33,527 nucleotides of DNA from Planctomycetota bacterium (GTDB lineage: Bacteria; Planctomycetota; J058). This document shows positions 4,537 through 30,944 of the stretch, one piece after another. Location: the NCBI GenBank assembly GCA_016765095.1, contig JAESQQ010000049.1, positions 1 through 33,527 on the forward strand. Direction: 5' to 3'. The notes under the pieces are model-generated. The model saw nothing but the letters and a program-made list of their open reading frames with translations. It made no database searches and was not told the DNA's origin. Each line of letters opens with the position of its first letter. Within the stretch, counting starts at the first letter, position 1. The translations under genes were made by a program, and so were the position numbers.

Positions 4537-6246
4537 TCATTCCAACGCGACTCGCAGCCAGCGGACTTGAAGCCCCGCACCGAGCAGGGCGCCCACCAGC
4601 GGGTCGTCTTCTTGTCGCGGGCCGGGAACGACGACGACCTCGGCTTGGTGTTCGCGGAGGGAGGCCAGGGTTGCCGGAGGGCTGCCGCCAGGCGCAAGCA
4701 CGCCGACGAGATCAAGGGCTGAATCGCTCTCGAGCGCCTCCTCGAGGAGCGGCCGAAGGTCGGGCGAAGCGAGCAGCACCGCGCGTTGCTTGCGCCCCGA
4801 GAGGCGGAGGAGGGACTCGCGGAGCAAGCGGAGGGCAGACCGGCTACCCACGACGGCCAGCAGGCTCAAGACCCAGTCGATCGCGATCACGCCGCGGGAG
4901 TAGTTCTCGAAGCGATCGAGCACGGTCGCGGCCAGCACGATCAGGAGGCTCGCAAGGCTGATCGCCTTCAGGACTCGCACCACGTCTTCGAACCGGATCG
5001 TGCGCCAAAAACCTCGGTAGAGCCGAAACAGGAGGAGCGCTGTGATCTTGCTCCCGATCACGAACGGGAGGCCGGGAAAGCCGCTCTCGCTCAGGTAGAA
5101 GGGGAGGGCGGGCCCACCCTCAGGCAACTCGAGCCCTCCAAAGCGGAGCGCGTAGGCGCCCAGCCAGCAGCCGCTGAGGATCGCGACGTCGACCAAGAGC
5201 TCGACTCCGTACAGGATCGCGGGGTGCCGGGAGCGGGCCACGACCGCCCGTCCGCTCGAATCGCGATAGACGGCCACGTCTCCCAGCAAGACACCCAGCA
5301 GGACGAGCACGATCCCTGCGATCACGACGCTCAAGAGCGTGGTTCCCAAGGACCCGCGAGCGGCCGCGAGCCCGATTCCACCGAGGATCGTGGCCGCGCC
5401 GTAGAGGACGAGCACGGTCCGACGGGGGCTGAGGCCGAGCGCCATCAGCCTGTGTGTGCTGTGGTCGCGCCCCCCCTGAAGAAAGGGCCGATTCGCGGCT
5501 CGCCGGCTAACCCAAACCAGGGCGGTGTCGAAGAGCGGAATCCCGAGGACGCAGGCCGGCGCGATCAGCTGGCGGAGTCCTCCGTCGGTTGGAATCCGAA
5601 CGGCGAGACCGGCCAAGGAGAACCCGAGCAAGAGGCTGCCTGCGTCTCCCATGTAGATCCGAGCTGGAGGGAAATTCCAGACCAGAAAACCCAACGCGGC
5701 CCCGGCCGCGACGAGAGTCGCGAAGGCGACTGTCGCGGACCCGCCGCCCATTGCAAAGCAAAACAAGGCCGCGATCGCCGCCACCCCTGCGGCGCTTCCG
5801 TCCATGTTGTCGAGGAGGTTGAGGGAGTTTGACATTCCGATGTACCAACCGGCAGTCACGATCCAGGCCAGCCATTGGGGCCCCTCCAAAATCAGCGGAG
5901 CGGGACCCGTGTCAAGAGGTCCCCAGACGACCCATAGGGCGGCGACAGCTTGGACGAGCAGCTTGACCTTGGGGGAGAGCTCTCGGCGATCGTCGACGAG
6001 CCCAAGGAGAAACAGGGCGGTGGCGGCCAGCGCCAAGTCCCACGAGCAAGCGGCGAGGCCGACGATCAAGACGGCGTAGATCGCGACGCCTCCGCCGAGC
6101 GCGACGGGGCGCTGGCTCCAGCGTTCGGCCTTCGGGCGCGAGACGAAGTCGATCCTCTGCGCGATCCCCATCCCGGCACGGGTCAGGAGCGCACCCGTCA
6201 GCGTGGCGCCGATCAAGGTCAGGAAGTGAAAGGGTTCTAGATTCAC
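4537..6246 (-). CDS. Glycosyltransferase family 4 (WecA/MraY/TagO-like UDP-sugar:polyprenyl-phosphate phosphotransferase) fused to CapD/EpsC-type N-terminal membrane plus nucleotide-binding region
   Basis: The track ORF begins at 6495, but the homologous region begins at VNLEPFHFLTLIGATLTGALLTRAGMGIAQRIDFVSRPKAERWSQRPVALGGG with a GTG at 6246. GT4 motifs: GLVDDRRELSPKVKLLVQ, NLLDNMDGSAAG, FLVWNFPPARIYMGDAGSLLLGF, RRAANRPFLQGGRDHSTHRLMALGLSPRRTVL. C-terminus: YGVELLVDVAILSGCWLGAYALRFGG...LYRGFWRTIRFEDVVRVLKAI...AVLLASPDLRPLLEEAL. Confidence 0.88.
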   Translation of the reverse strand: MNLEPFHFLTLIGATLTGALLTRAGMGIAQRIDFVSRPKAERWSQRPVALGGGVAIYAVLIVGLAACSWDLALAATALFLLGLVDDRRELSPKVKLLVQAVAALWVVWGPLDTGPAPLILEGPQWLAWIVTAGWYIGMSNSLNLLDNMDGSAAGVAAIAALFCFAMGGGSATVAFATLVAAGAALGFLVWNFPPARIYMGDAGSLLLGFSLAGLAVRIPTDGGLRQLIAPACVLGIPLFDTALVWVSRRAANRPFLQGGRDHSTHRLMALGLSPRRTVLVLYGAATILGGIGLAAARGSLGTTLLSVVIAGIVLVLLGVLLGDVAVYRDSSGRAVVARSRHPAILYGVELLVDVAILSGCWLGAYALRFGGLELPEGGPALPFYLSESGFPGLPFVIGSKITALLLFRLYRGFWRTIRFEDVVRVLKAISLASLLIVLAATVLDRFENYSRGVIAIDWVLSLLAVVGSRSALRLLRESLLRLSGRKQRAVLLASPDLRPLLEEALESDSALDLVGVLAPGGSPPATLASLREHQAEVVVVPGPRQEDDPLVGALLGAGLQVRWLRVALE

Positions 6247-6606
6247 GGGCCTCGACTTCCGCGAACACGAGGAAGTGCAGGGCGGAGCTTGGAACTGGTG
6301 AAGATACTCGCCACCCAGCGCCCGTTCAAAGGAGTTAGGTCTCGAGTCCGCAAGGTGGGCGGGCTGCTCTCGCCGTTCGTCGTCGCCGAGCACCTCGGTC
6401 GACCACCCATTGGGCTCTTGCGGCTGCCTTGTTGCTTCGGTGGACCGGTCGGGAAGACAGGCAGCCGGCGATTTTCCGGGGGAACAACTCCCCAAGAGGA
6501 TGGTGCTTCGCTGAGCTGGAGTGGCTTCGTAAACAGGGGTGGAAGCTGGCTGGACCCCATTCGATTTGGGGTCATTGGAAGGCCTACTTCACCAGACTGG
6601 AAGGAC

Positions 6607-6635
6607 TTGCGGTGGCAAGAAGAGCGAAGTATAGT
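6607..6635 (+). promoter_or_regulatory. Candidate sigma70-type promoter for the pil operon (TTGCGG-17 bp-TATAGT)
   Basis: TTGCGG at 6607-6612, 17-bp spacer, TATAGT at 6630-6635, in the intergenic region upstream of pilM. Confidence 0.4.
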
Positions 6636-6652
6636 CCCGATCCTGCATGGGG

Positions 6653-6674
6653 AAGGGGGGGCTTAACCCCCCTT
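6653..6674 (+). other. Perfect 8-bp stem-loop (AAGGGGGG-GCTTAA-CCCCCCTT) in the putative pil operon leader
   Basis: Direct inverted repeat about 20 nt downstream of the candidate -10 element; no T-tract follows. Confidence 0.5.
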
Positions 6675-6747
6675 GAATGGGACGGTTCTGTGGGGATTCT
6701 TAGCCTTGGATGCGCTCGACGCAACCCTTGGGTGAAGACACTCCTAG

Positions 6748-6807
6748 GCCAAAATCGGTCAAGCCAAAATCGGCCAGGCCAAAATCGGCCAGGCCAAAAT
6801 CGGCACG
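6748..6807 (+). repeat. Four tandem 15-bp units, consensus GCCAAAATCGGCCAG
   Basis: Units at 6748-6762, 6763-6777, 6778-6792, 6793-6807; the central two are identical. Confidence 0.9.
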
Positions 6808-6880
6808 GGATCGCGGGTGGGCAACGGGGGATCAGTCGGTCCTACGTTCACCACCACGCGAAGCACTAGGGAGGACGAAG

Positions 6881-7903
6881 GTGTTCGGCAGGAACAAGCG
6901 AATCCTCGCGTTGGACATTGGCTCCAGCGACATTAAGGCGCTCGAAGTCAACGACGCGGGTGGCAAGATCGAGTTATCGAACTTCGCCTGTACGAAGATT
7001 GGCAACCAGAACGAGACGATCTTCGCGATCCGCGAGATCATGCGGCGGTCAGCTTTCAAGACCAAGCGCTGCGTGACCTCAGTCTCTGGGCGCTCAGTCA
7101 TCGTGCGCTACGTCAACATGGCCCAAATGGGCGAGCAGGAGCTGAAGCAGGCGATTCGATTCGAGGCGGACAAGTACATCCCCTTCGAGGTCGACGAAGT
7201 CGTTATGGACACTCAGATCCTCGAGGAGGAGATCGCCGACGGATCCGGCGAAATGAAGGTCCTCTTGGTCGCGGTTCGTAAGAACCTGATCGAAGAGCAC
7301 CTTCACCTCTTGCAAGAGGCAGGACTTCAATCGGCGATTATCGACGTTGACGCCTTCGCCCTCGGGAACGCCTTCGAAATGCGCGCTCGCGAGTCGGGCG
7401 GGCTCAGCCCCGAGAAGGTCGTGGCCTTGATCGACATTGGCTCGAACAAGACCAACATCAACATCCTCAAGGGCGGCACGAGTTACTTCACTCGTGAGGT
7501 CTATCTCGCTGGAAACGACTTCTCCGAGGCCGTCTCCCGCAAGTTCAACTTGGACGGCCAAGAGGCAGAGCGCCTCAAGTGCAACCCAGACGACCAAGCC
7601 GCCGACGTCGAGGAGGCGATCCTGCCGACCCTCGACGACTTGGGCAACGAGATTCAGCTCTCCTTCGACTACTTCGAGAACCAGTTTGATCGGGTCGTCG
7701 AAGAGGTCTATATCTCGGGGGGCTCTGCTCAGTTGCCGGGTCTCCAACGGGCCTTTGAGGGTGCGTTCGAGAAGAGTGTCGTGTTCTGGGACCCCCTCGA
7801 GTCGCTGGTCATTAAGCCAGGCCTCGACGAGAAGGCGATCGGTGCCTTGGCGGGTCAACTTGCAGTCTCGGTTGGCCTCGCCAGCCGAGTCCGGAGGTGG
7901 TAG
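6881..7903 (+). CDS. pilM: Type IV pilus assembly protein PilM
   Basis: Actin-like ATPase: FGRNKRILALDIGSSDIKALEVNDAGG, RSVIVRYVNMAQMGEQELKQAIRFEADKYIPFEVDEVVMDTQIL, VALIDIGSNKTNINIL, ISGGSAQLPGLQRAFE. GTG start at 6881 with GGAGG upstream; the track start at 6710 lies in the leader. Confidence 0.95.
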   Translation: MFGRNKRILALDIGSSDIKALEVNDAGGKIELSNFACTKIGNQNETIFAIREIMRRSAFKTKRCVTSVSGRSVIVRYVNMAQMGEQELKQAIRFEADKYIPFEVDEVVMDTQILEEEIADGSGEMKVLLVAVRKNLIEEHLHLLQEAGLQSAIIDVDAFALGNAFEMRARESGGLSPEKVVALIDIGSNKTNINILKGGTSYFTREVYLAGNDFSEAVSRKFNLDGQEAERLKCNPDDQAADVEEAILPTLDDLGNEIQLSFDYFENQFDRVVEEVYISGGSAQLPGLQRAFEGAFEKSVVFWDPLESLVIKPGLDEKAIGALAGQLAVSVGLASRVRRW

Positions 7904-7905
7904 CC

Positions 7906-8601
7906 ATGCTCGCCATGATCGAGATCAACCTCCTTCCTGAGGAGTTCCGCCCCCGCGAGAAGACCAACCTCGGTCTGATCGGAACGGTGGCCGTCGGTCT
8001 GATCGTCTCGGGTGCGACCCTCATGATCTCTCTTGATGTCAAGAGTGACCTGAGCACCAAGAGCAACCAGCTCCAGCAGAAAGAGCAAGACCTCAAGGAC
8101 AAGAAGGTCTTGGTCAAGGAGATCAAAGAGCTTGAGGCTGAGATCGCGCAAAAGAAGAATCGGCAGAACACGATCATCAAGATCAGCCAGTCCAAGGTGA
8201 TGTGGTCCCTCAAGCTGCAGCAGTTCTCCGCGATCGCCCAGGATTTTCCCGAGTTCTGGATCGAGGAGCTTGTGCTGACTCGCAAGGCCTCGCGCGCCAG
8301 GAAAGGCAGCTCCGGTACGGTTGAGTCAGTCTTGCGAATGGACTGCGGCGCGACCGGAACGAGCTTCCGCAAAGTGGCGAGCTTCCAAGACGCCCTCAAG
8401 GACGAGCCAAACTTCTTCTATCACTTCGCTGATTTGAAGAGCAACCGCGTCGCCGTCGAGGATCTCGAAGAGGGCTTCAACTTCCGCGAAAAGCTCGTGT
8501 TCTCGGTTGAGTTGCCTCTGCGCAACCTCGCCCCCGAGAAGAAGACGAAGAAGAAGAAAACCAAGCCTGCGGCCAAGAAGCCCGCCGCCAAGACCAAGTA
8601 A
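7906..8601 (+). CDS. pilN: PilN-like type IV pilus inner-membrane protein with Lys-rich C-terminus
   Basis: MLAMIEINLLPEEFRPREKTNLGLIGTVAVGLIVSGATLMISLDVKS then coiled coil; immediately follows pilM; GGAGG SD at 7893-7897. C-terminus KKTKKKKTKPAAKKPAAKTK. Confidence 0.85.
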   Translation: MLAMIEINLLPEEFRPREKTNLGLIGTVAVGLIVSGATLMISLDVKSDLSTKSNQLQQKEQDLKDKKVLVKEIKELEAEIAQKKNRQNTIIKISQSKVMWSLKLQQFSAIAQDFPEFWIEELVLTRKASRARKGSSGTVESVLRMDCGATGTSFRKVASFQDALKDEPNFFYHFADLKSNRVAVEDLEEGFNFREKLVFSVELPLRNLAPEKKTKKKKTKPAAKKPAAKTK

Positions 8602-8611
8602 GGAGGGAACG

Positions 8612-9253
8612 ATGACCAAAGAGATTCAAATGATCGTCGTGGCGGCTGTGATCTTCGTATCCATCACAGGCGGCCTCGCTTGGTGGGGAATGGGCCTCTC
8701 GGACGAAGTGACCTCCCGCGATGGCGCGATCGCAGCCCTTGAGGTCACGATCGACAAGGCCGACGCGGAGATCGCCAAGAAGCCCCGTCTCGAGACCGAG
8801 AAGGAAGCGCTCGACAAGCACATTGCGCGTTACGTCACGATCCTTCCCCCGCCGGAGGTCGCGAGCAAGCAGTCCTTCCTGCGAATGGTTCAGGAGAAGT
8901 GCGAGCGTTCACAGCTCAACGCACGCTCGATTGTGTTCGTCGCGCCGAAGCTGAAGAAAAAGAAAAAGGCCAAGGCCAAGGCCAAGGGCAAGGGCAAGGG
9001 CAAGAAGAAGAGCTCTGGTCCAGCCTTTGAAGAGGTCAAAGTCAACCTCGAGGCGGAGGGCACCTACGACGAGTTCCTCCGGTTCTTGAACTCGATCGAG
9101 CGGCACGAGACCTTCTTGCGGGTCAACACCTTCAGCTGCCGCGTGATTCCCTTCGAGGACGATGCGGAGCCTACGAAGGACGACAACGACAACATCGTTT
9201 GGAACCTCGAGATTCGGCTCCAAGTTTCAACCTTCACCTACAAGACGAAGTAG
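8612..9253 (+). CDS. pilO: PilO-like type IV pilus inner-membrane protein with internal Lys-rich insert
   Basis: ATG at 8612 after GGAGG: MTKEIQMIVVAAVIFVSITGGLAWWGMGLSDEV, coiled coil, insert KLKKKKKAKAKAKGKGKGKKKSS, then VKVNLEAEGTYDEFLRFLNSIERHETFLRVNTFSC, typical of the PilO periplasmic domain. Confidence 0.83.
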   Translation: MTKEIQMIVVAAVIFVSITGGLAWWGMGLSDEVTSRDGAIAALEVTIDKADAEIAKKPRLETEKEALDKHIARYVTILPPPEVASKQSFLRMVQEKCERSQLNARSIVFVAPKLKKKKKAKAKAKGKGKGKKKSSGPAFEEVKVNLEAEGTYDEFLRFLNSIERHETFLRVNTFSCRVIPFEDDAEPTKDDNDNIVWNLEIRLQVSTFTYKTK

Positions 9254-9262
9254 GCGGTCCCA

Positions 9263-10651
9263 ATGAGCATGCGATTCCTAGCAAGCGTTCGTCGGGGAGT
9301 TCCCGTTCTGCTTTGTGCCAGCGCGCTTTGTCTGGCCCCAGCCTTCGCCCAAGACGGCGACGACGGAGACACTCCTACCGATCGAAAGGTCCTCGTGGCT
9401 AAGGCCTACGAGGCTGCTCGCAAGAAGAACTGGAGAGAGGTCTCCGACGCAATCACTGAGTTGACCAACATCAGTGGCGGCAAGGCTGACAGCCGGCTTC
9501 TCTTCCTAAAGGCCAAGGCTTTCTTTGAGCAGGCTAGGCCTTCGCTCGGCAAGAAGGGCAAGAAGGCCGCAGAGGGGAAGGAGGCCCTCGACGCCTCGAA
9601 GGACGCCCTCAAGGTCCTCTTGGAGCAGCACCCGGATCACGTCGAAGGGACCTACCTTTACGCGGTGATCGAGGCCAGTAGCGATAACGAGACCGAAGCG
9701 AAGGGCCGCTTGATTCGTGCGGCTGCCCGGGGTCGTTACGTGCTCTACGACCTCGAGTCGAGTGAGGGCAAAAAAACGTTCAAGGGTTACCTCAAGGATC
9801 CTGAGTTCATTCTCGACGTCATGAACGCGGCGAGCGAGTTCCAGGTCAACCTCAAGAGCCTGCGCAATCCATTCGCGAGCCCGATCCGCAGGATCGTTGA
9901 GAGCGACGACGGCGACGACGACGGGCTCCCCAAGGTCTCGGTTCTCATTCCAAAGCGGCTTCAGCAGCTCGAGGCGCAGGTCGACAAGCTGTTCGCTAAG
10001 ATCGACGAGCTCGCCAAGCGCCAAGACGCTGAGGCCATGAGCATCAAGTTCCAGGAGCTGCGCGCGCTCATGAATGAGTACGGGGCCGAGGGCTCCGACA
10101 TGGCGAAGGAAAAGCTAGCCACCTGGAAGCAGAAGCTCATTCAATACGGTGACCTTTACCTCTCAATCCAGCTTCAGATCTATATCCAAGAGGGCAACCA
10201 GCACCTCAAGGCCATGGCGAAGGCGCTCGAGCAAGAAGAGTGGGATCTCGCGCTGCAGCGCTTTGAGGACATCAAGGAGCTTCGCGACCAAATGATGGCC
10301 GAGGAGCGAGACGTCTTCCGACGCAACGCCAAGGCCCTTCTCGTCCGGGGTAAGAGCCTCGCTGAGCAAGCGATTCGCATGAAGCGGATCTCCGAGTTCA
10401 AGCTTCGGATCACCGGGATCATCCTCGCTCCACCCGAGGACGAACGGCAAAAGGACAGCGCGATCGTCGACGATCGCATCTACTACGAGCACGACCACCT
10501 CATCGACGTTGAGACAGAGGAAGAGATTCCTGACCTAGAGGTGGTTGAGATCCTCAAATCCCGCGTTAGATTCCGCTACCAAGGTACGGAGTTCGTGCGT
10601 GGGCTTGAGCGCCCTAATGAAAACAAGGCGAGCGAAGAGGCCGGGAAGTAG
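9263..10651 (+). CDS. Secreted/periplasmic helical (TPR/coiled-coil-like) protein in the PilP operon position
   Basis: 462 aa; signal peptide GVPVLLCASALCLAPAFAQ; helical repeats and coiled coil; C-terminal segment IYYEHDHLIDVETEEEIPDLEVVEILKSRVRFRYQGTEFVRGL. Sits between pilO and pilQ. Confidence 0.75.
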   Translation: MSMRFLASVRRGVPVLLCASALCLAPAFAQDGDDGDTPTDRKVLVAKAYEAARKKNWREVSDAITELTNISGGKADSRLLFLKAKAFFEQARPSLGKKGKKAAEGKEALDASKDALKVLLEQHPDHVEGTYLYAVIEASSDNETEAKGRLIRAAARGRYVLYDLESSEGKKTFKGYLKDPEFILDVMNAASEFQVNLKSLRNPFASPIRRIVESDDGDDDGLPKVSVLIPKRLQQLEAQVDKLFAKIDELAKRQDAEAMSIKFQELRALMNEYGAEGSDMAKEKLATWKQKLIQYGDLYLSIQLQIYIQEGNQHLKAMAKALEQEEWDLALQRFEDIKELRDQMMAEERDVFRRNAKALLVRGKSLAEQAIRMKRISEFKLRITGIILAPPEDERQKDSAIVDDRIYYEHDHLIDVETEEEIPDLEVVEILKSRVRFRYQGTEFVRGLERPNENKASEEAGK

Positions 10652-13104: not shown

Positions 13105-14559
13105 ATGAGCAAGCGAATGCTGATCAACGTCGCCGAGGCTGAAGAGGCTCGGTTGGCGATCGTCGAAGACGACCTCCTCTCTGAGCTCTATGTCGAGCGG
13201 ACGACTGAGGAAAAGTACCTCGGCAACATCTACAAAGGCCGGATCGCCAACATTGAGCCGAGCATTCAGGCTGCCTTCGTGGACTTCGGGCGCGAGGTCA
13301 ACGGTTTCCTCCACGCGAGCGACGTGATGCCTGCCTACAGCAGGGCGCCGCAAGGTGAGCGGGAGGACATAGGCGCGATGCTGGTCAAGGGCCAGGAGAT
13401 CCTGGTTCAGATCACCAAGGATCAGATCCGGACCAAGGTCCCGACGGTCACGACGTACATCAGCCTGCCGGGTCGCTATCTGGTCTTGATGCCTTCGATC
13501 AACAAGTGCGGCGTCAGCAAGAAGATCACCTCCGAGGAGGAGCGCCAGAAGCTGCGCGCGCTGCTCAAAGAGCTCAACCCGCCCGCTGGCATGGGCTACA
13601 TCATTCGCACGGCGGGGATCGATCGCTCGCGCGAGGAGCTGGCCCGAGACCTCGATTATCTCCTCAACCTCTGGAAGGCGATCCTCGACAAGGTCAAGAC
13701 CCAAGAGTCTCCCGCCACGATCTATAAGGAGAGCGACCTCGTGATCCGCTCGATCCGTGACCTGTTCACGGGCGACATCGAGGAAGTCATCATTGACGAC
13801 TACGAGGTCTACACCCGCGCCAAGGACTTCCTGGCAGCTGTCATGCCGCGACACCAGGACGGGATCAAGTTCTATCCCGGCCCGACGCCTCTGTTCCACA
13901 AATACAACGTCGAGCGGCAGATCGTTGGCCTCCAGGCGCGCCGCGTGCCGCTGAAGTCTGGCGGCTCGCTGATCATTGAGCAGACGGAGGCCCTGGTCGC
14001 GATCGACGTCAACTCGGGCAAGTTCAAGGGGGAGAAGAACCTCGAGGACACCGCTTACAAGACCAACCGAGAGGCCGCTGCTGAGATCGCACGTCAGGTT
14101 CGCCTCCGCGACCTCGGCGGCTTGATCGTCTGCGACTTCATTGACATGCGGGAGTCGAAGCACCGCACGTCGATCGAGCGGAGTCTGCGAGCTCAGCTCC
14201 GCCGCGACCGGGCTCGCGTTCGCGTCGCCCGCATGTCGCGCTTCTCCCTGATCGAAATGACCCGTCAACGTGTCCGGGAGAGTCTCAAGCGGACCACCTA
14301 CGACCAATGCCCGACCTGCACCGGGACGGGCTACGTGAAGTCCGTCGAGTCGCTCGCGCTTGAGGTCTTGCGTGAGCTGCAACTGCACTTTGTGGATCAT
14401 CCCGAGACCAAGGCCACCGTCGTCTGCGGCAACGAGGTCGCGGATTACCTGCGTCAGCGGAAGCAGAGCTCGTTGGACCGAGTCAGCGAGCGCTTCGGCC
14501 AAGCGATCGACCTCGTCGTCTCCCGTGAGTTCGGGCGCGAGGAGTTCAAGGTCGGCTAG
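13105..14559 (+). CDS. rng: Ribonuclease G/E family endoribonuclease
   Basis: MSKRMLINVAEAEEARLAIVEDDLLSELYVERTTEEKYLGNIYKGRIANIEPSIQAAFVDFGREVNGFLH; GGSLIIEQTEALVAIDVNSGKF; GGLIVCDFIDM; CPTCTGTGYVKS. Lacks a long RNase E scaffold tail. Confidence 0.95.
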   Translation: MSKRMLINVAEAEEARLAIVEDDLLSELYVERTTEEKYLGNIYKGRIANIEPSIQAAFVDFGREVNGFLHASDVMPAYSRAPQGEREDIGAMLVKGQEILVQITKDQIRTKVPTVTTYISLPGRYLVLMPSINKCGVSKKITSEEERQKLRALLKELNPPAGMGYIIRTAGIDRSREELARDLDYLLNLWKAILDKVKTQESPATIYKESDLVIRSIRDLFTGDIEEVIIDDYEVYTRAKDFLAAVMPRHQDGIKFYPGPTPLFHKYNVERQIVGLQARRVPLKSGGSLIIEQTEALVAIDVNSGKFKGEKNLEDTAYKTNREAAAEIARQVRLRDLGGLIVCDFIDMRESKHRTSIERSLRAQLRRDRARVRVARMSRFSLIEMTRQRVRESLKRTTYDQCPTCTGTGYVKSVESLALEVLRELQLHFVDHPETKATVVCGNEVADYLRQRKQSSLDRVSERFGQAIDLVVSREFGREEFKVG

Positions 14560-18892: not shown

Positions 18893-20185
18893 ATGCGCCC
18901 AGGAACACCTGGTGGCCGTCGACTCAGCCGTCGACGCAGCCCTCTCCTCAGCCGTCGACTTGGCAAGGCGAGTCGGCGATTCACGCTGATCGAGCTTCTC
19001 GTCGCGGTCGCGCTGTCGACGATCCTGACTGGGGCCGTCGTCTTCATTTTCATTCAGGCCCAGAACATCTTCACCAAGCTCGACGCCAAGGTGCAGGTCT
19101 ATCAGTACGCCCGCTTCGCTTTCGATCGGATCGAGCGGGACTTGGGCAACGTCACCAACTCCCGCGACATGGAGTTCTTCAACGACCAAGCCCCCCCTCA
19201 GGGGACGAAGGGTCGCCTCGACGTCGGCGAGGAGCTTCCGATTCGTGGAACGGCTAACAACGACGCTTCGAACACGGGCGACGATATCTACAACCACTCG
19301 TTCACGATTCGCCAGCCGGCGAAGTACACCGACACCGAGAACGGCATCGAGCGCCGCTGGGACTCGATCTACTTCAAGACGATCACTCGGATCGGCGGCC
19401 AGACTTCAGCGACTCTGATCGAGTACGCCATGGTGGACACGGACAAGCCGCGCCCGAAGCTCCAGCGCAAGCTGTGGCGAGTGACGGGCGTCGACGCCGC
19501 GAACCCCCTCGCGCCTCGCTTCGAGATCAACGGCCCCCAGGGCGGTCAGCCCCAGAAGCAGGACCTCTGCCTCTACACGATTGACTGCAAGCTCGAGGTG
19601 TTCGTCAAGAACTTCCGTCGCAGCGACGGAGGCGCCTTCTACTCCGCAGCGCAGCTCGTCAAGCCTCCCAGGGAGTGGGACCGCGATATCAACACCAACA
19701 CCGAACCTTCGATCCCCCCCATGAAGAACGACTGGCGGGGCAAGCACGCGCAGGTTCAGTGCTACTACGACGCGAAACACGACGACGCTCGCATGCAGCC
19801 CGACCTCGGCGTGTTCGAGCCCGGTGAGAACGGCCTGTTCCACACCCAGGCCTCCTTTGGCTTCCCAATGCTCCGGGAGGGCGACTCGCTCTACCTCTGG
19901 GGTGGGTTCCGCGGCTTCAAGGGGCGCGCCTACACGATCAGGAAGTTCCTCATGAAAGACGGCAAGGGCGCCTTGGTCCCTTGGAATCCGCGCACGGGCG
20001 ACATGACTCAGCTTCGGGTCCAGTTCGCCGAGCCGGTCGAGGGCCAGCGTCCGAACCAGCAAATGCTGGTGCGCTACGCCGCAGGTTTCGTGCCCGCTGC
20101 CCTCCGCGCGACGGTCGTGATCAAGGACTCCAAGAGCCTCGCGAATCGCTCGGTCTCTCGCGTGTTCAAGATCATGTCGAACTAG
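18893..20185 (+). CDS. Prepilin-type protein, GspJ/PilW-like
   Basis: LGKASRRFTLIELLVAVALSTILTGAVVFIFIQAQNIFTKLDAKVQVYQYARFAFDRIERDLGN; long C-terminal domain. Confidence 0.88.
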   Translation: MRPGTPGGRRLSRRRSPLLSRRLGKASRRFTLIELLVAVALSTILTGAVVFIFIQAQNIFTKLDAKVQVYQYARFAFDRIERDLGNVTNSRDMEFFNDQAPPQGTKGRLDVGEELPIRGTANNDASNTGDDIYNHSFTIRQPAKYTDTENGIERRWDSIYFKTITRIGGQTSATLIEYAMVDTDKPRPKLQRKLWRVTGVDAANPLAPRFEINGPQGGQPQKQDLCLYTIDCKLEVFVKNFRRSDGGAFYSAAQLVKPPREWDRDINTNTEPSIPPMKNDWRGKHAQVQCYYDAKHDDARMQPDLGVFEPGENGLFHTQASFGFPMLREGDSLYLWGGFRGFKGRAYTIRKFLMKDGKGALVPWNPRTGDMTQLRVQFAEPVEGQRPNQQMLVRYAAGFVPAALRATVVIKDSKSLANRSVSRVFKIMSN

Positions 20186-20214
20186 GTTTCGGCGGCATTC
20201 GACGCGAGCTCAGG

Positions 20215-20248
20215 CGCCCTCAGCTATGGCTGGGGGCGTTGTTGCTTT
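20215..20248 (+). terminator. Candidate Rho-independent terminator after the prepilin operon
   Basis: CGCCCTCAGC-TATG-GCTGGGGGCG (10-bp stem with one G-U) followed by TTGTTGCTTT. Confidence 0.6.
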
Positions 20249-20403: not shown

Positions 20404-22359
20404 ATGACTCGTTCGACCCTCGTCTCTGTGTCTCTGCTCCTCCTCGCGGGGACGGTCGCGTCTGCTCAAGACGTTGCTTTCCAGCAATGGCGTCAGGGGA
20501 GCATGGCTCCTCAGCGGGCGGTCGAAGGCCGGGCCGCGATTCGGAGCGCCCAGGATCTGCGGGATCGAGGGCTGGAGCAGTTGATGCCGGTCGGTGGCAG
20601 CTTCGACTTCAGTAAGGAAATGCTCCTGGGCTTGGTCATGCCGCGCCAGAGCAGCGGCGGGATTTCGATCTCGGTCGAGTCGATCAAGCGCCAGATTTTG
20701 CCCGTCAGTGGCCCTGGCGGCGCCCTTGGAGGCCAGGCTCAGCTGGTCGTCACCGTTCGCGTCGCGAGGCCCGCGCTGGGGGCACCTGCGACCGCCGTGA
20801 TCACGCGGCCCTTCGTCATGGTCAAGACGGCGGCGAGCACCCTCCCCGTCCGGTTCGTGACCGCGACCTCAACGCCGGGCGGCGGTGGACTCCTCCCGCC
20901 TGGGCAAATGCCCTTCCACGTCGTGCGTGACGGGGTGCAGGCGCCCTCTTCGGTAGCGACGGGCAACACCGTGATCCGAAGCGCGGCGGATCTGGCTGCC
21001 AGCCCGCTGCGGGCCCTGGTCCCCAACCCGAGCTCGATCCGCTGGAACGCGGAAATGCTCGCGATCCTGGTCATGGATCAGCAGAGCACCGGCGGCTACG
21101 GAATCGGCGTCCAGCGGGTCTCCCGCCGGATTACGCCGACCTCAGGGGGTCCCGGTGTACCCAGTGGCGGCTCGCTGCACTTTGAGATCGAGTTCGAACT
21201 GACTCGACCCGCTCCGGGCCAAGCCGTCACCATGGCGCTGACGCGCCCCTTCCAGGTCGTGCGCCTCTCGCGCTCTCCGCGCGTCGTGTTCACCAACGTC
21301 ACCCAGCCCCACACTGGCCCGGTCGGACCGCTCTTGCCTCCCGGTCAGCTGCCTTTCCACGTCGTCCGAGACGGCGTGCAGGCGTCCATGGGGGTCCCCA
21401 CCGGTGAGTTCGTCGTGCGCAGCGCTGCTGAGCTCACCTCAAGCGGCCTCAGCTCGCTGGTCCCAAACCCGGGCTCGATTCGATGGAGCCAAGAAATGCT
21501 GGCGATCCTGGTCCGTGAGCCTCAGAGCACGGGCGGCTATGGGATCGCGGTCGACAAGGTCTTTCAACGGATCACCCCCACGGGCGGCGGCCCGGGCGGC
21601 GGCCCGCTCGGAGGCGCTCGTCACCTCGAGATCCAGTTCTCCACGACGAACCCGGGGCCCAACGATCTCGTCACCAAGGCGCTGACGCGTCCCTTCCAGG
21701 TCGTGCGCCTCTCTGCCAGCCCGCGGGTCGTGTTCGAGCGGACGGCGCAGGGCACGGAGGTGACCGGCGTCGTGCAGGTCGAGCGGAGCTTCGGAATCAC
21801 GCGTGTCTTCCTCGTGAGCGGCCAGCAGCGCCGCTACCTGACCCCCCGCAGCTTCGCCCTCAGCCTCGAGGCCCTCGCCGGCCAGACGGTGCGGATCGAC
21901 GCCCACCGGACTCTGTCCTGGTTGGTCAGCGCGCGGGAGCTCCTCTCGCCCCGCCCCTTCCGTGGCGCAGGCGAAATCGGCGGCACCGCCGGCGCGCCAG
22001 TCTTGGTCCAGAGCACTGGGAACCTCCGAATCGAAGGGCGCCTCGCGCAGACCCTCAGCGAGCACGCTCGAGGCGTGCGCGTCGAGGGCGTTCGAGGATT
22101 TCGGTTTGGCAACGAGCGCCTGCTCGTGACGAGCTTCCAGGCCAAGACGAAGCACCCCACCTGGGTGACCCGCCGGGGGCGTCGCCTGAACCGTCTTCAG
22201 GCTGGTGAGACCGTGACCGTCACCAGCCGCTCGCGCTCGGGACGCTCGCTCGTCGTGACGCCCGCCCAAGGCGCGTCTGGCTACGTAACCAACTGGCGCC
22301 TGACCCTCGGCCAGACAGTCGGCGCCGCCGGCGCCTTGAAGGCCGCCGGCGGTCAGTAA
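20404..22359 (+). CDS. Secreted protein with three tandem PrcB_C-like domains plus a C-terminal beta-rich region
   Basis: 651 aa; signal peptide MTRSTLVSVSLLLLAGTVASAQ; three copies of IRSAxDL..L.LVP..(S/F)..xxEMLxxLVM..QSxGGxxIxV..V.R.I.P.......a.TRPFxVV (from about 20470, 20908, 21349). Resembles the PrcB C-terminal domain pattern (DF...m.v.v..G...TGGY.i.i). Confidence 0.75.
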   Translation: MTRSTLVSVSLLLLAGTVASAQDVAFQQWRQGSMAPQRAVEGRAAIRSAQDLRDRGLEQLMPVGGSFDFSKEMLLGLVMPRQSSGGISISVESIKRQILPVSGPGGALGGQAQLVVTVRVARPALGAPATAVITRPFVMVKTAASTLPVRFVTATSTPGGGGLLPPGQMPFHVVRDGVQAPSSVATGNTVIRSAADLAASPLRALVPNPSSIRWNAEMLAILVMDQQSTGGYGIGVQRVSRRITPTSGGPGVPSGGSLHFEIEFELTRPAPGQAVTMALTRPFQVVRLSRSPRVVFTNVTQPHTGPVGPLLPPGQLPFHVVRDGVQASMGVPTGEFVVRSAAELTSSGLSSLVPNPGSIRWSQEMLAILVREPQSTGGYGIAVDKVFQRITPTGGGPGGGPLGGARHLEIQFSTTNPGPNDLVTKALTRPFQVVRLSASPRVVFERTAQGTEVTGVVQVERSFGITRVFLVSGQQRRYLTPRSFALSLEALAGQTVRIDAHRTLSWLVSARELLSPRPFRGAGEIGGTAGAPVLVQSTGNLRIEGRLAQTLSEHARGVRVEGVRGFRFGNERLLVTSFQAKTKHPTWVTRRGRRLNRLQAGETVTVTSRSRSGRSLVVTPAQGASGYVTNWRLTLGQTVGAAGALKAAGGQ

Positions 22360-22390: not shown

Positions 22391-24256
<1,866 letters not shown>

Positions 24257-24305: not shown

Positions 24306-26156
24306 GTGAGCGCTGTCACCCCTCGCATATGCGATCGTCATGCCGTGGATCAACACCGCTTCCAGATCGACCTCCGGGGCCTGATCGAGCTCCTCTCCGA
24401 CCACCTCTACAGTGGGCCGCAGGTCTACATTCGGGAGCTGCTCCAGAACGGGGTCGACGCGATCACCGCCCGGCGAGCGAAGCAACCTGAGCACGTCGGC
24501 CGGATCGAACTGGAGGTCGTCGAAGTCAAGGGTGACCTCCCGACCCTGATCGTGAGCGACAACGGGGTCGGGCTGACTCCAGACGAGGTCCACCGCTTCT
24601 TGGCCACGATCGGCGAGAGCAGCAAACGCGGCGTGGTCCCCGAGCGCGGCGAGTTCATTGGTCAGTTCGGGATCGGGCTCTTGGCCGGGTTTATCGTCAG
24701 CCAAGAGCTCGTGATGGTCACCCGCTCGATCGAGCCCAACTCGCCAGCGCTCGAGTGGCGCGGTCGTCCCGAAGGGACGTATTCGCTGCGAGAGCTAGAG
24801 GGGCCAGTCGAGCCCGGGACGCGGGTTTACCTCAAGGCCAAGGAGGGGGCCGAGGAGTGGCTCGCCCCGGCGCGGGTCGAGGAGCTCGCTCGCCACTTCG
24901 GCGGTCTGCTCTCGGTGGACGTCGTGCTTCGCCTCCCGAGCGGCGAACGGCGGTTGAACCTCGATCCCCCCTGGCGCTCCCCTCCCGGGGATCCAACGGA
25001 GGAGCGCGAGGCGCTGATCGAACTCGGACGTGAGACCTTCGAGGTCGACTTCTTTGACGCGATCCCGCTTCGTGGGCGGGGCTTGGAGGGAGTGGCCTAT
25101 GTGCTCCCTTATCGCCCGACGCTCGCGACCCAGGGCAGCCACCGGGTCTACCTCAAGGGCATGCTCCTCTCTGAGAGCGCCAAGAACCTCCTCCCGCCCT
25201 GGGCGTTCTTCGTCCGGTGCCTGATCGACGCCCGCCGCCTGCGTCCGACCGCCTCTCGCGAGCAGCTCTACGAGGACGAGGAGCTCGAGCTGACCCGGTC
25301 CGCGCTCGGGACCGCGCTTCGCGACTACCTCGTGGACCTGTCTCGGACCGATCCGATTCGCTGGGGGCGCTTCCTGAGGCTCCACTCGCTCTCGATTCGG
25401 GCCCTCGCCCTCCAAGACGACGAGCTGTTCGACTTGTTCGTAGAGAGGCTCCCTTACGAGACGAGCGCTGGGCGGCTGACGCTGGGCGAGGTCAGAGAGA
25501 TGTTCGGCGCGGTCCGCTACGTGCCCGACCTCGAGTCCTTCCGCCAAGTCCAAGCCGTCGCGTCGGCCCAGGGCCTCTGTCTCGTCAACGCCGGCTACGT
25601 CTACGACGCCGAGATCCTGGCTCGCTACGCGCTCCGCCAAGGCGCAGAGATCGACGTCCAGGAGGTTGATCCTCAGGCCTTGACCCAGAGCCTGGAGTCG
25701 CCAACCGCCGAAGAGAGCCAGCGCTACGCTGGCTTCTTGGCGATCGCGGACGAGGTTCTCGGACCCCACGGCTGCTCAGCCGAGTTGAGGCGCTTCGCAC
25801 CAGCGAGCCTGCCGACGATCTACGCCACCGACCGCGAGGCGCCCTTTCGGCGCGCCTTGGAGCGGACGCAGGAGGACCTGGAGGAGGGCCCTTGGGCGGG
25901 CGTCTTGGACTCTCTCGCCAAGGCGCGCACCGCGCCCCCGGCCCAGCTCTGCTTCAACCTCGACAACCCGTGCGTGGCGCGGCTGGGCGCCCAGTCCGAT
26001 CCGAGCCTCCTCCTGCGCGCGATCGAGCTCCTCTATGTCCAGGCTCTCCTCCTCGGGCAGCACCCGCTGCGCCAGGAGGAGCTCGGCCTGCTAAACAGCG
26101 GGCTGTTGGGGCTCGTCGAGTGGGGCCTCGAGCAGGCCGAGGGGAGTCGCGAGTGA
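24306..26156 (+). CDS. HSP90-family protein (HtpG-like GHKL ATPase)
   Basis: HRFQIDLRGLIELLSDHLYSGPQVYIRELLQNGVDAIT; SDNGVGLTPDEVHRFLATIGESSK; GEFIGQFGIGLLAGFIVS; VYLKGMLLSESAKNLLPPWAFFVRCLIDARRLRPTASREQLYED. GTG start. Confidence 0.9.
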   Translation: MSAVTPRICDRHAVDQHRFQIDLRGLIELLSDHLYSGPQVYIRELLQNGVDAITARRAKQPEHVGRIELEVVEVKGDLPTLIVSDNGVGLTPDEVHRFLATIGESSKRGVVPERGEFIGQFGIGLLAGFIVSQELVMVTRSIEPNSPALEWRGRPEGTYSLRELEGPVEPGTRVYLKAKEGAEEWLAPARVEELARHFGGLLSVDVVLRLPSGERRLNLDPPWRSPPGDPTEEREALIELGRETFEVDFFDAIPLRGRGLEGVAYVLPYRPTLATQGSHRVYLKGMLLSESAKNLLPPWAFFVRCLIDARRLRPTASREQLYEDEELELTRSALGTALRDYLVDLSRTDPIRWGRFLRLHSLSIRALALQDDELFDLFVERLPYETSAGRLTLGEVREMFGAVRYVPDLESFRQVQAVASAQGLCLVNAGYVYDAEILARYALRQGAEIDVQEVDPQALTQSLESPTAEESQRYAGFLAIADEVLGPHGCSAELRRFAPASLPTIYATDREAPFRRALERTQEDLEEGPWAGVLDSLAKARTAPPAQLCFNLDNPCVARLGAQSDPSLLLRAIELLYVQALLLGQHPLRQEELGLLNSGLLGLVEWGLEQAEGSRE

Positions 26157-28883: not shown

Positions 28884-30944
28884 GTGGCGAGCCCAGAGCG
28901 CGTCGAGTTGGGCTGTCCGAGTTGTGGCGCGAGCTTTCGGGCTCGCAGCATGGGCTCTAGCTACTACATAGCCGGCATTGACACCGATCTCCGCGAGAAG
29001 GGGAGCATTGAGGACGTCCGCCGCTACAGCCTCGCCTCCTGTCCCCACTGCACCTACAGCGACTACACCTGGGAGTTCCAGACAGGCGAGCGGTTCACGG
29101 ACGCCGAGCAGAAGGCCCTCGCGAGCGCGCTTGGGACGAGCGAGGGAGCTCCGGCACGCAACCGCCCCTTTGGTGACTTCGAGCGCCTTCAGCTGGCTCG
29201 GACTTGCTTCGACGCCCGGGGCTTGGCTGCGAGCTCGCGGGCAGAGTTGGCCTTGCTTGGCTACTACGTGGCCCGTGACCTCGGTCGCCGCGATCTCGAG
29301 CCCGGACTCCGCGACGAGAGTCAGGCCCTGTTCACCGAGGCCCTGAGCGAAGAGCTCCCCGGGCCGCTCCTCCAGCGCTATGCCTATCTGGGCGGCGAGT
29401 TGGCGCGGCGCGGCGGTCGCCGCGACGAGGCCCTCGCGCTCCTCGACCAAGCGCTTCAAGTCGAGGCCGGCGATCCCGAGTGGGACCCCGAAGGTCGCGC
29501 CTGGGACATTGAGCGCCTCGCCCGCCGAATGCACGCGTCCGTGCTCCACGCTGACGCGGAGCCCGCCGATCTCCTCGCGCTAATTCGAGAGGGGCAGCCC
29601 GAGGTCGCTCACGAAGCCTGTCGAATCCTCTCCGGTCGTCGCGACAAGGCGTCGCTGGAGCCTCTCCAAGCTGCCTGGAGTGAGGCTCCAAGCGAGACTC
29701 GGACGGGCATGCTGCGCGAGTTGGTCGTCGAGCCGCACAGCGCCTTCGAGCCCGTCTTCCGCGAGGCGATTCAGAGCGCGGTCCCAGACGACGTTCGCCT
29801 CGCAGCGCGCGGCCTGGCCCAGCTTCGCCAAGGCCGGGACGCTGTCCTCGAGGCCCTCCGCCGCGGCGTGCTCTCGACCGAGGCCGCCTTGACCGACGCC
29901 CTCCGCCACCTCAACGGCGACGACACCCTGGCCCAGGTCCAAGAGATCCTCACCTCGTGGGAGGCTCAGGCGCCCGAAGCGGCCGACGAGTGGTACTTCG
30001 GGAGCGACCCCGCTCCTCTCCGGAGCTTCCTCTATACCTCGGGGACCGCCGACGGACGCGAGCTCCTCGTGCGCGATCTATGTGCCCTCGACGAGAACGA
30101 TCTCTGGGACAAGGTCCCCTCGGGCGGCCCCGTCAGCGCTGCGCTTGCCGTCGGCGACGAGCTCGTCTCGGACTTAATCGCGCTCTTGGGGCACGAGAAC
30201 GCGGCCACCCGTCGCTGGTCCTGCTACCTCTTGGCCGAGCTCCGCCACCGCGGAGCGATCGCCGAGATTGAGCCTCTCGTCGAGGATCCAGACGCCGTCG
30301 TTCGCCTCCAGGCTGCGACCGCCCTCGCCCGGCTCGGGGACTCGGCCCACGAGGCGGTCGTCCTGAGCGGGCTCCGCGAGCTCGACGAGGGAGACTTGCC
30401 CTTCGCGCTTCACTTCCTCGTGCCTTTCCAAAGCGACGCGATCAAGGCCTTCCTGTTCGAGCTCCTCGACTCGGACCAATGCGCGCGGAGCGAACTCCTG
30501 CCGCTGATCGGGCGCCAGGTGCCCGACGACCGAACCGACGACACGCTCAACACCTCACTCCTCGAGCTGAGCGACGACACCCGCGCCGGCGCCGTGACGG
30601 GGCTCTCCTTTCGGAACCAAGAGCAGATCGTCGAGCGCCTCCGCCTCCTCTACGACCACGAGGACTCCGACGAGGTGCTGCGGCGCCTCGTCCACGGGCT
30701 CGGACGCCTGGCTCGCAACGGGCACCGTCGCGACGAGACGACTGTGTTTCTCCGCGAGCGCCTCGAGAGCGCGACGCCGCGGCTCCGGTTCCCGATCGCC
30801 CACACGCTCCTGACTTTGGACGATCCGACTGGAATCGACGTCGTCCGCGAGCGGGCGGCTTTGTTCCACGAGTCGCCCGATCGTTACGACCTCGTGGCCC
30901 CGGCCCTCAAGGCACTCGCCGAGTACGAGCGACGACGGGCTTGA
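28884..30944 (+). CDS. DUF2225-like zinc-ribbon N-terminus fused to HEAT-like repeats
   Basis: CPSCGASFRARSMGSSYYIAGIDTDLREKGSIEDVRRYSLASCPHCTYSDYTWEF; TPR-like helices; HEAT-like DLIALLGHENAATRRWSCYLLAELRHRGAIAEIEPLVEDPDAVVRLQAATALARLGDSAHE. Confidence 0.75.
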   Translation: MASPERVELGCPSCGASFRARSMGSSYYIAGIDTDLREKGSIEDVRRYSLASCPHCTYSDYTWEFQTGERFTDAEQKALASALGTSEGAPARNRPFGDFERLQLARTCFDARGLAASSRAELALLGYYVARDLGRRDLEPGLRDESQALFTEALSEELPGPLLQRYAYLGGELARRGGRRDEALALLDQALQVEAGDPEWDPEGRAWDIERLARRMHASVLHADAEPADLLALIREGQPEVAHEACRILSGRRDKASLEPLQAAWSEAPSETRTGMLRELVVEPHSAFEPVFREAIQSAVPDDVRLAARGLAQLRQGRDAVLEALRRGVLSTEAALTDALRHLNGDDTLAQVQEILTSWEAQAPEAADEWYFGSDPAPLRSFLYTSGTADGRELLVRDLCALDENDLWDKVPSGGPVSAALAVGDELVSDLIALLGHENAATRRWSCYLLAELRHRGAIAEIEPLVEDPDAVVRLQAATALARLGDSAHEAVVLSGLRELDEGDLPFALHFLVPFQSDAIKAFLFELLDSDQCARSELLPLIGRQVPDDRTDDTLNTSLLELSDDTRAGAVTGLSFRNQEQIVERLRLLYDHEDSDEVLRRLVHGLGRLARNGHRRDETTVFLRERLESATPRLRFPIAHTLLTLDDPTGIDVVRERAALFHESPDRYDLVAPALKALAEYERRRA

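Follow-up and report, generated by a model that had tools for sequence, protein, structure and literature searches.

In Treponema denticola, PrcB is an outer-membrane lipoprotein on which the subtilisin-family protease PrtP depends and with which it interacts (PMC8167434), and the PrcB domain has been described as binding and stabilising PrtP (PMC5674127). In the papers found, PrcB is known experimentally from this one oral spirochaete, although many bacteria and also an archaeon carry the domain. Our literature search for PF14343, PrcB-like domains or DUF5818 found nothing relevant. Here we describe a planctomycete protein with three such units in tandem, encoded in a stretch of 33,527 nucleotides (hereafter, the window), and compare it with its closest known counterparts.

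A planctomycete protein with three PrcB units

The open reading frame at 20404-22359 of the forward strand begins with an ATG closely preceded by a Shine-Dalgarno-like AAGAGGT, encodes 651 amino acids and has the composition of a coding sequence (third-position GC of 0.83). Residues 1-21 (MTRSTLVSVSLLLLAGTVASA / QDV; 20404..20466, forward strand) read as a Sec-type signal peptide, whose junction, '...A.A-Q(D/E)VPF', is shared by relatives; inspection by eye found no lipobox cysteine in the signal region. This signal-peptide-like start suggests that the protein is exported through the Sec pathway. No solved sequence relative of the 651-residue protein was found, and querying the genome contigs with the single protein returned zero matches.

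The original prediction described three tandem PrcB-type domains in repeats of about 147 codons and proposed a search with PF14343 (PrcB_C). That search indeed recovered three matches in the protein (93.4 bits in total, E 9.3e-27). In the genome search, each domain exceeded the Pfam gathering score of 24 bits, with 29.4 bits at 20635-20829, 37.8 at 21067-21267 and 38.2 at 21511-21711, so that the repeats are PrcB domains and not members of another family. The measured spacing, 435 and 441-444 nucleotides or 145-148 codons, likewise agrees with the predicted repeat length. The true repeat is the whole PrcB unit of about 107-120 residues. We therefore refer below to a full-unit profile, built from the three copies together with related sequences, whose 107 positions make it twice as long as the Pfam domain with its 56-residue core. 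All on the forward strand, unit 1 (residues 26-143; 20479..20832), the most diverged copy, scored 90 bits with this profile, unit 2 (residues 171-290; 20914..21273) 97.5 bits, and unit 3 (residues 318-437; 21355..21714) 93 bits. The NCBIfam model of dentilisin PrcB, NF033596, also matched (E 7.9e-16) over profile positions 65-172 of 176, indicating that homology reaches beyond the short Pfam domain; at 58.4 against 125 bits, the match missed the equivalog cut-off. The unit alone makes up whole proteins of 149-206 residues in other planctomycetes, a Bacteroidales and a Chloroflexi MAG, and its occurrence as stand-alone proteins in many bacteria marks it as a self-standing folded module. Overall, we regard the assignment to the PrcB family as virtually certain, and the protein represents a genuine variant of this known family, though not the only one of its kind. 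The C-terminal domain of the PRD1 spike protein P5 (PF08949), considered as a candidate, was rejected at 15.5 bits against a cut-off of 25.

The AlphaFold2 model of unit 2, based on 19 sequences, has a mean pLDDT of 93.7 and consists of beta strands with two short helices. Comparing it by Foldseek with the PDB (best E 0.22) and with viral models (best E 0.10) revealed no relative; we thus found no solved example of this fold at that sensitivity. Sequence searches with the unit and tail profiles likewise gave no solved relative at a meaningful E-value. A chagasin-like (I42) inhibitor fold, prompted by the TGGY motif, was discarded: chagasin was not among the 50 listed PDB matches, and the viral libraries gave no support.

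Age and recurrence of the tandem arrays

The units arose by genuine internal duplication, as had been proposed, since their similarity far exceeds the shuffled expectation (1000 shuffles). Units 2 and 3 share 68% protein identity (z 74) and are sisters in the unit tree (support 99/97); unit 1 is 40% identical to unit 2 (z 29) and 37% identical to unit 3 (z 24). The proposal that copies 2 and 3 duplicated recently is not supported by their DNA, which is only 67% identical. Among the residues identical between the two, 48 of 89 use the same codon, where 39.7 are expected from codon usage alone. Silent sites are therefore near saturation and the duplication is not recent; the retention of 68% protein identity over that time implies that selection has held both copies. 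The units of three related proteins, namely L032 (of the same genus), L036 (L125 in the tree) and L106, also cluster within their own proteins. This indicates that tandem duplication happened several times independently, in a tree built on a short alignment in which many forks are unresolved.

We surveyed the phylum for comparable arrays. PF14343 was found in 48 of 392 sampled Planctomycetota genomes, and among the roughly 72 open reading frames listed, seven had at least two matches and only that at 20404-22359 had three above the cut-off. The more sensitive full-unit profile matched 79 of the 392 genomes, with at least 18 of the listed frames, across several families, carrying two or more units. 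Three or four units occurred in four frames among the matches listed, each from a different family: three in the window protein, in G010:C4 and in G039:C221 (L081), and four in G007:C198, the same 1514-residue frame as L106. Within the window's own family, PrcB is carried by all seven genomes. The window's own genome encodes a second PrcB protein with two diverged units in a 508-residue open frame (G000:C161:5866-6624), many family members have a single unit, and copy number varies. Tandem PrcB arrays in Planctomycetota are thus recurrent but a minority, uncommon rather than unique. The expectation that they would be unusual is not well supported: their recurrence in several families, with three or four units in four sampled frames, goes halfway towards the opposite outcome, an already common architecture.

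Two of these arrays have features of their own. The L106 frame (4840-9381, forward strand, of JAJDCQ010000029.1) combines its four PrcB units, two intact and two without the GG loop, with other repeated sequence in between and the C-terminal OB-OB-SH3 tail described below. The three-unit protein of L081 (817-2610, reverse strand) has a C-terminal end that weakly resembles the propeptide of fervidolysin, a subtilisin-type protein (E 0.011, below the cut-off).

The C-terminal OB-OB-SH3 module

Residues 451-647 constitute a separate C-terminal module, matched by the profile of alignment A6 with 177.9 bits over 21754-22344. Its AlphaFold2 model (pLDDT 86.5) shows two domains that share one order of strands and helices and, after them, a small beta barrel. 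The first OB-like domain (residues 451-515; 21754..21948, forward strand, as are the following) is supported by the A6 profile and the model, and is where the DUF5818 matches of homologues fall. The second (residues 517-582; 21952..22149) repeats the strand and helix order of the first and has weak double-OB matches in Foldseek. The third domain (residues 586-636; 22159..22311) is SH3-like by Foldseek, with weak SH3_3/SH3_4 matches in homologues, and is followed by a tail (22312..22356) that has, close to its C-terminal end, a G-x-x-G-A/S motif common to family members in alignment A6. Against the Abl SH3 domain, the last domain reached a Foldseek probability of 1.00 (TMt 0.70-0.79, rmsd 2.0-2.7, E 0.02-0.06); the first two gave weaker matches to OB-fold proteins, including RNase II, HIN tandem-OB domains and EF-P. 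The modules of homologues match DUF5818 (PF19135) with E-values down to 4.9e-7, and the C-terminal part of the window protein itself reached no Pfam family.

The module was found in all seven genomes of the family (2-12 matches each) and in one more genome of the order, for a total of eight of 294 genomes of the phylum, all within one order. Its N-terminal partners include PrcB, a phospholipase-D-like domain, a middle domain of about 130 residues (alignment A7) and other parts, and all tail-bearing PrcB proteins follow the order PrcB(1-4), optional middle domain, OB-OB-SH3. This fixed order, and the recurrence of the tail on a phospholipase-D-like protein, are what one would expect of a targeting or anchoring module used by several proteins. 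Together with fold resemblances of modest E-value, they lead us to infer that OB-OB-SH3 may be a tail used in common for surface targeting or anchoring, which would make it a candidate, order-restricted surface-targeting module in planctomycetes. A broader and rather doubtful proposal is that of an order-specific secreted set, in which the common tail would bring interchangeable N-terminal modules (arrays with one to four PrcB units, the ~130-residue domain, phospholipase-D-like or other enzymes) to one cell site, the PrcB arrays serving as multivalent docks for exported proteases.

Several carriers of the module are of interest in their own right. The phospholipase-D-like protein (PLDc_2, E 2.3e-15) is encoded at L042:4846-7116 (forward strand; G005:C755). 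Secreted proteins at L031:8533-10167 (reverse strand), on contig C350 of the window's own genome, and at L126 in G003 join the tail to a conserved N-terminal part with no Pfam match, whose Arg ... S-T ... E-x-E pattern looks ADP-ribosyltransferase-like by eye only. The ~130-residue domain, which lies between PrcB and the tail or has the tail as its only companion (L030, L033, L036, L037, L039, L040, L043, L137-L139, L141, L142, L146 and L147), corresponds to no Pfam family or solved structure and may be a novel domain belonging to this planctomycete family. An emfourin-like identity for it was dismissed, having no support in Pfam or the PDB (best E 0.028, to DUF6438).

Genomic setting, possible role and relation to known systems

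The neighbouring operon resembles a pilus or type II secretion locus, with PilM, a GspM-like gene, a secretin, RNase G and five N_methyl-type pseudopilins. Its RNase E/G gene (13105-14559) lies between the secretin and the pseudopilins, in an order kept in G001, G002 and G003, where the fetched stretch reaches these genes. On the other side of the PrcB gene, the window encodes a protein that weakly resembles SpoIIE and has CxxC pairs and a linker rich in PEPEPKP (22391-24238, reverse strand), beside it a divergent Hsp90-like ATPase (24306-26156, forward strand), and further on a DUF2225 domain fused to HEAT repeats (28884-30944, forward strand). The PrcB gene begins 218 bp downstream of the last, pseudopilin-like gene of the operon (18893..20185, weak N_methyl match) and on the same strand, an arrangement that had suggested a pilus- or secretion-associated adhesin encoded together with the pseudopilins. 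This association did not survive comparison with relatives. The pseudopilin genes PPN1-5 are kept in six of six other genomes of the family, and in none of the six does the fetched flanking sequence (3.7 kb downstream of the operon in G001, a genome of the same genus) place a PrcB gene beside them. The eight family PrcB loci examined contain neither pilus genes nor other genes from the window, and the flanking genes sampled in relatives are unrelated. Moreover, a stable hairpin (20213..20240, forward strand; 12-pair stem, folding z -3.5) lies between the two genes and, having no clean U-run, is only suggestive of a terminator, and the prepilin N-methylation family PF07963, present in the upstream genes, is absent from the PrcB protein. 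We consider a pilus-linked adhesin highly improbable.

Our preferred reading, with a probability of roughly 40%, is a secreted or envelope multivalent protein-binding scaffold with proteases as favoured clients, whose binding, avidity and anchoring we infer. The protein would be exported via Sec to the envelope or outside the cell, where its three duplicated units would present three similar protein-binding faces, copy number conferring avidity, and where OB-OB-SH3 would attach it to the envelope or to some shared component of the surface. Its clients, secreted proteases or other exported proteins, would be bound and stabilised much as PrtP is by T. denticola PrcB. The independent duplications in the window protein, L032, L036 (L125) and L106 are what a useful copy number would predict. 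Since no protease adjoins the gene, and a motif scan of 469 kb of the window and fetched related loci detected no subtilisin (S8) Ser and His motif pair, a protease client is only presumptive, and generic adhesion is nearly as likely. The units would then be adhesion or ligand-binding domains for polysaccharide or cell surfaces with no tie to proteases, the dentilisin link then reflecting just one specialised role of a common fold. Besides the missing protease neighbours, this realistic possibility is favoured by the wide spread of PrcB_C, which is also found in Thermus, Deinobacterium and Methanocaldococcus control genomes, by its fusion to right-handed beta-helix proteins in other planctomycetes, and by the starch-binding-like domain of L032 (CBM_20, E 9.7e-5, just below the cut-off). 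However, the one PrcB member with published experiments that we found binds a protease (PMC8167434), and Foldseek returned no carbohydrate-binding or adhesin structure.

Tandem duplication is also typical of inhibitors, and a multi-headed inhibitor, in which each unit would block one protease molecule and so protect the cell envelope, would fit the weak propeptide resemblance in L081, below the cut-off as it is, and the interaction of PrcB with a subtilisin-family protease (PMC8167434). We judge it unlikely: loss of PrcB in T. denticola removes PrtP rather than activating it (PMC8167434), the behaviour of a helper and not of an inhibitor, and the chagasin and emfourin resemblances spotted by eye were not confirmed. 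Less likely still is a largely neutral duplication, with the array functioning no further than a single unit. It would account for the many one-unit family members and the variable copy number, but none of the three units has lost its good match to the family profile, and selection has held units 2 and 3 as silent sites approached saturation. Arrays with two to four units, having arisen several times in nature, would make it possible to ask whether PrcB binds proteins or proteases in general and whether copy number tunes binding.

Compared with T. denticola PrcB of the dentilisin complex, the window protein belongs to the same family and, like it, appears to be exported, but it has three units instead of one and adds the OB-OB-SH3 module, lacks a lipobox and scores below the NF033596 equivalog cut-off. 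Unlike the prcB-prcA-prtP operon, its gene is accompanied by neither prcA nor prtP, with no protease among its neighbours. The stand-alone PrcB proteins of Planctomycetota, Bacteroidota and Chloroflexota (for example L101, L107 and L111) consist of the same unit, in single copy and without the C-terminal module. That module is related to DUF5818 (PF19135) and bacterial SH3 domains by family matches in homologues, and in the window protein itself only by its SH3 fold. Among tandem proteins, G010:C4 has a similar three-unit array, as does L081, which differs in its C-terminal end, whereas L106 shares both tandem PrcB units and the OB-OB-SH3 tail with the window protein, having reached this architecture through its own separate duplication and with different sequence between the units.
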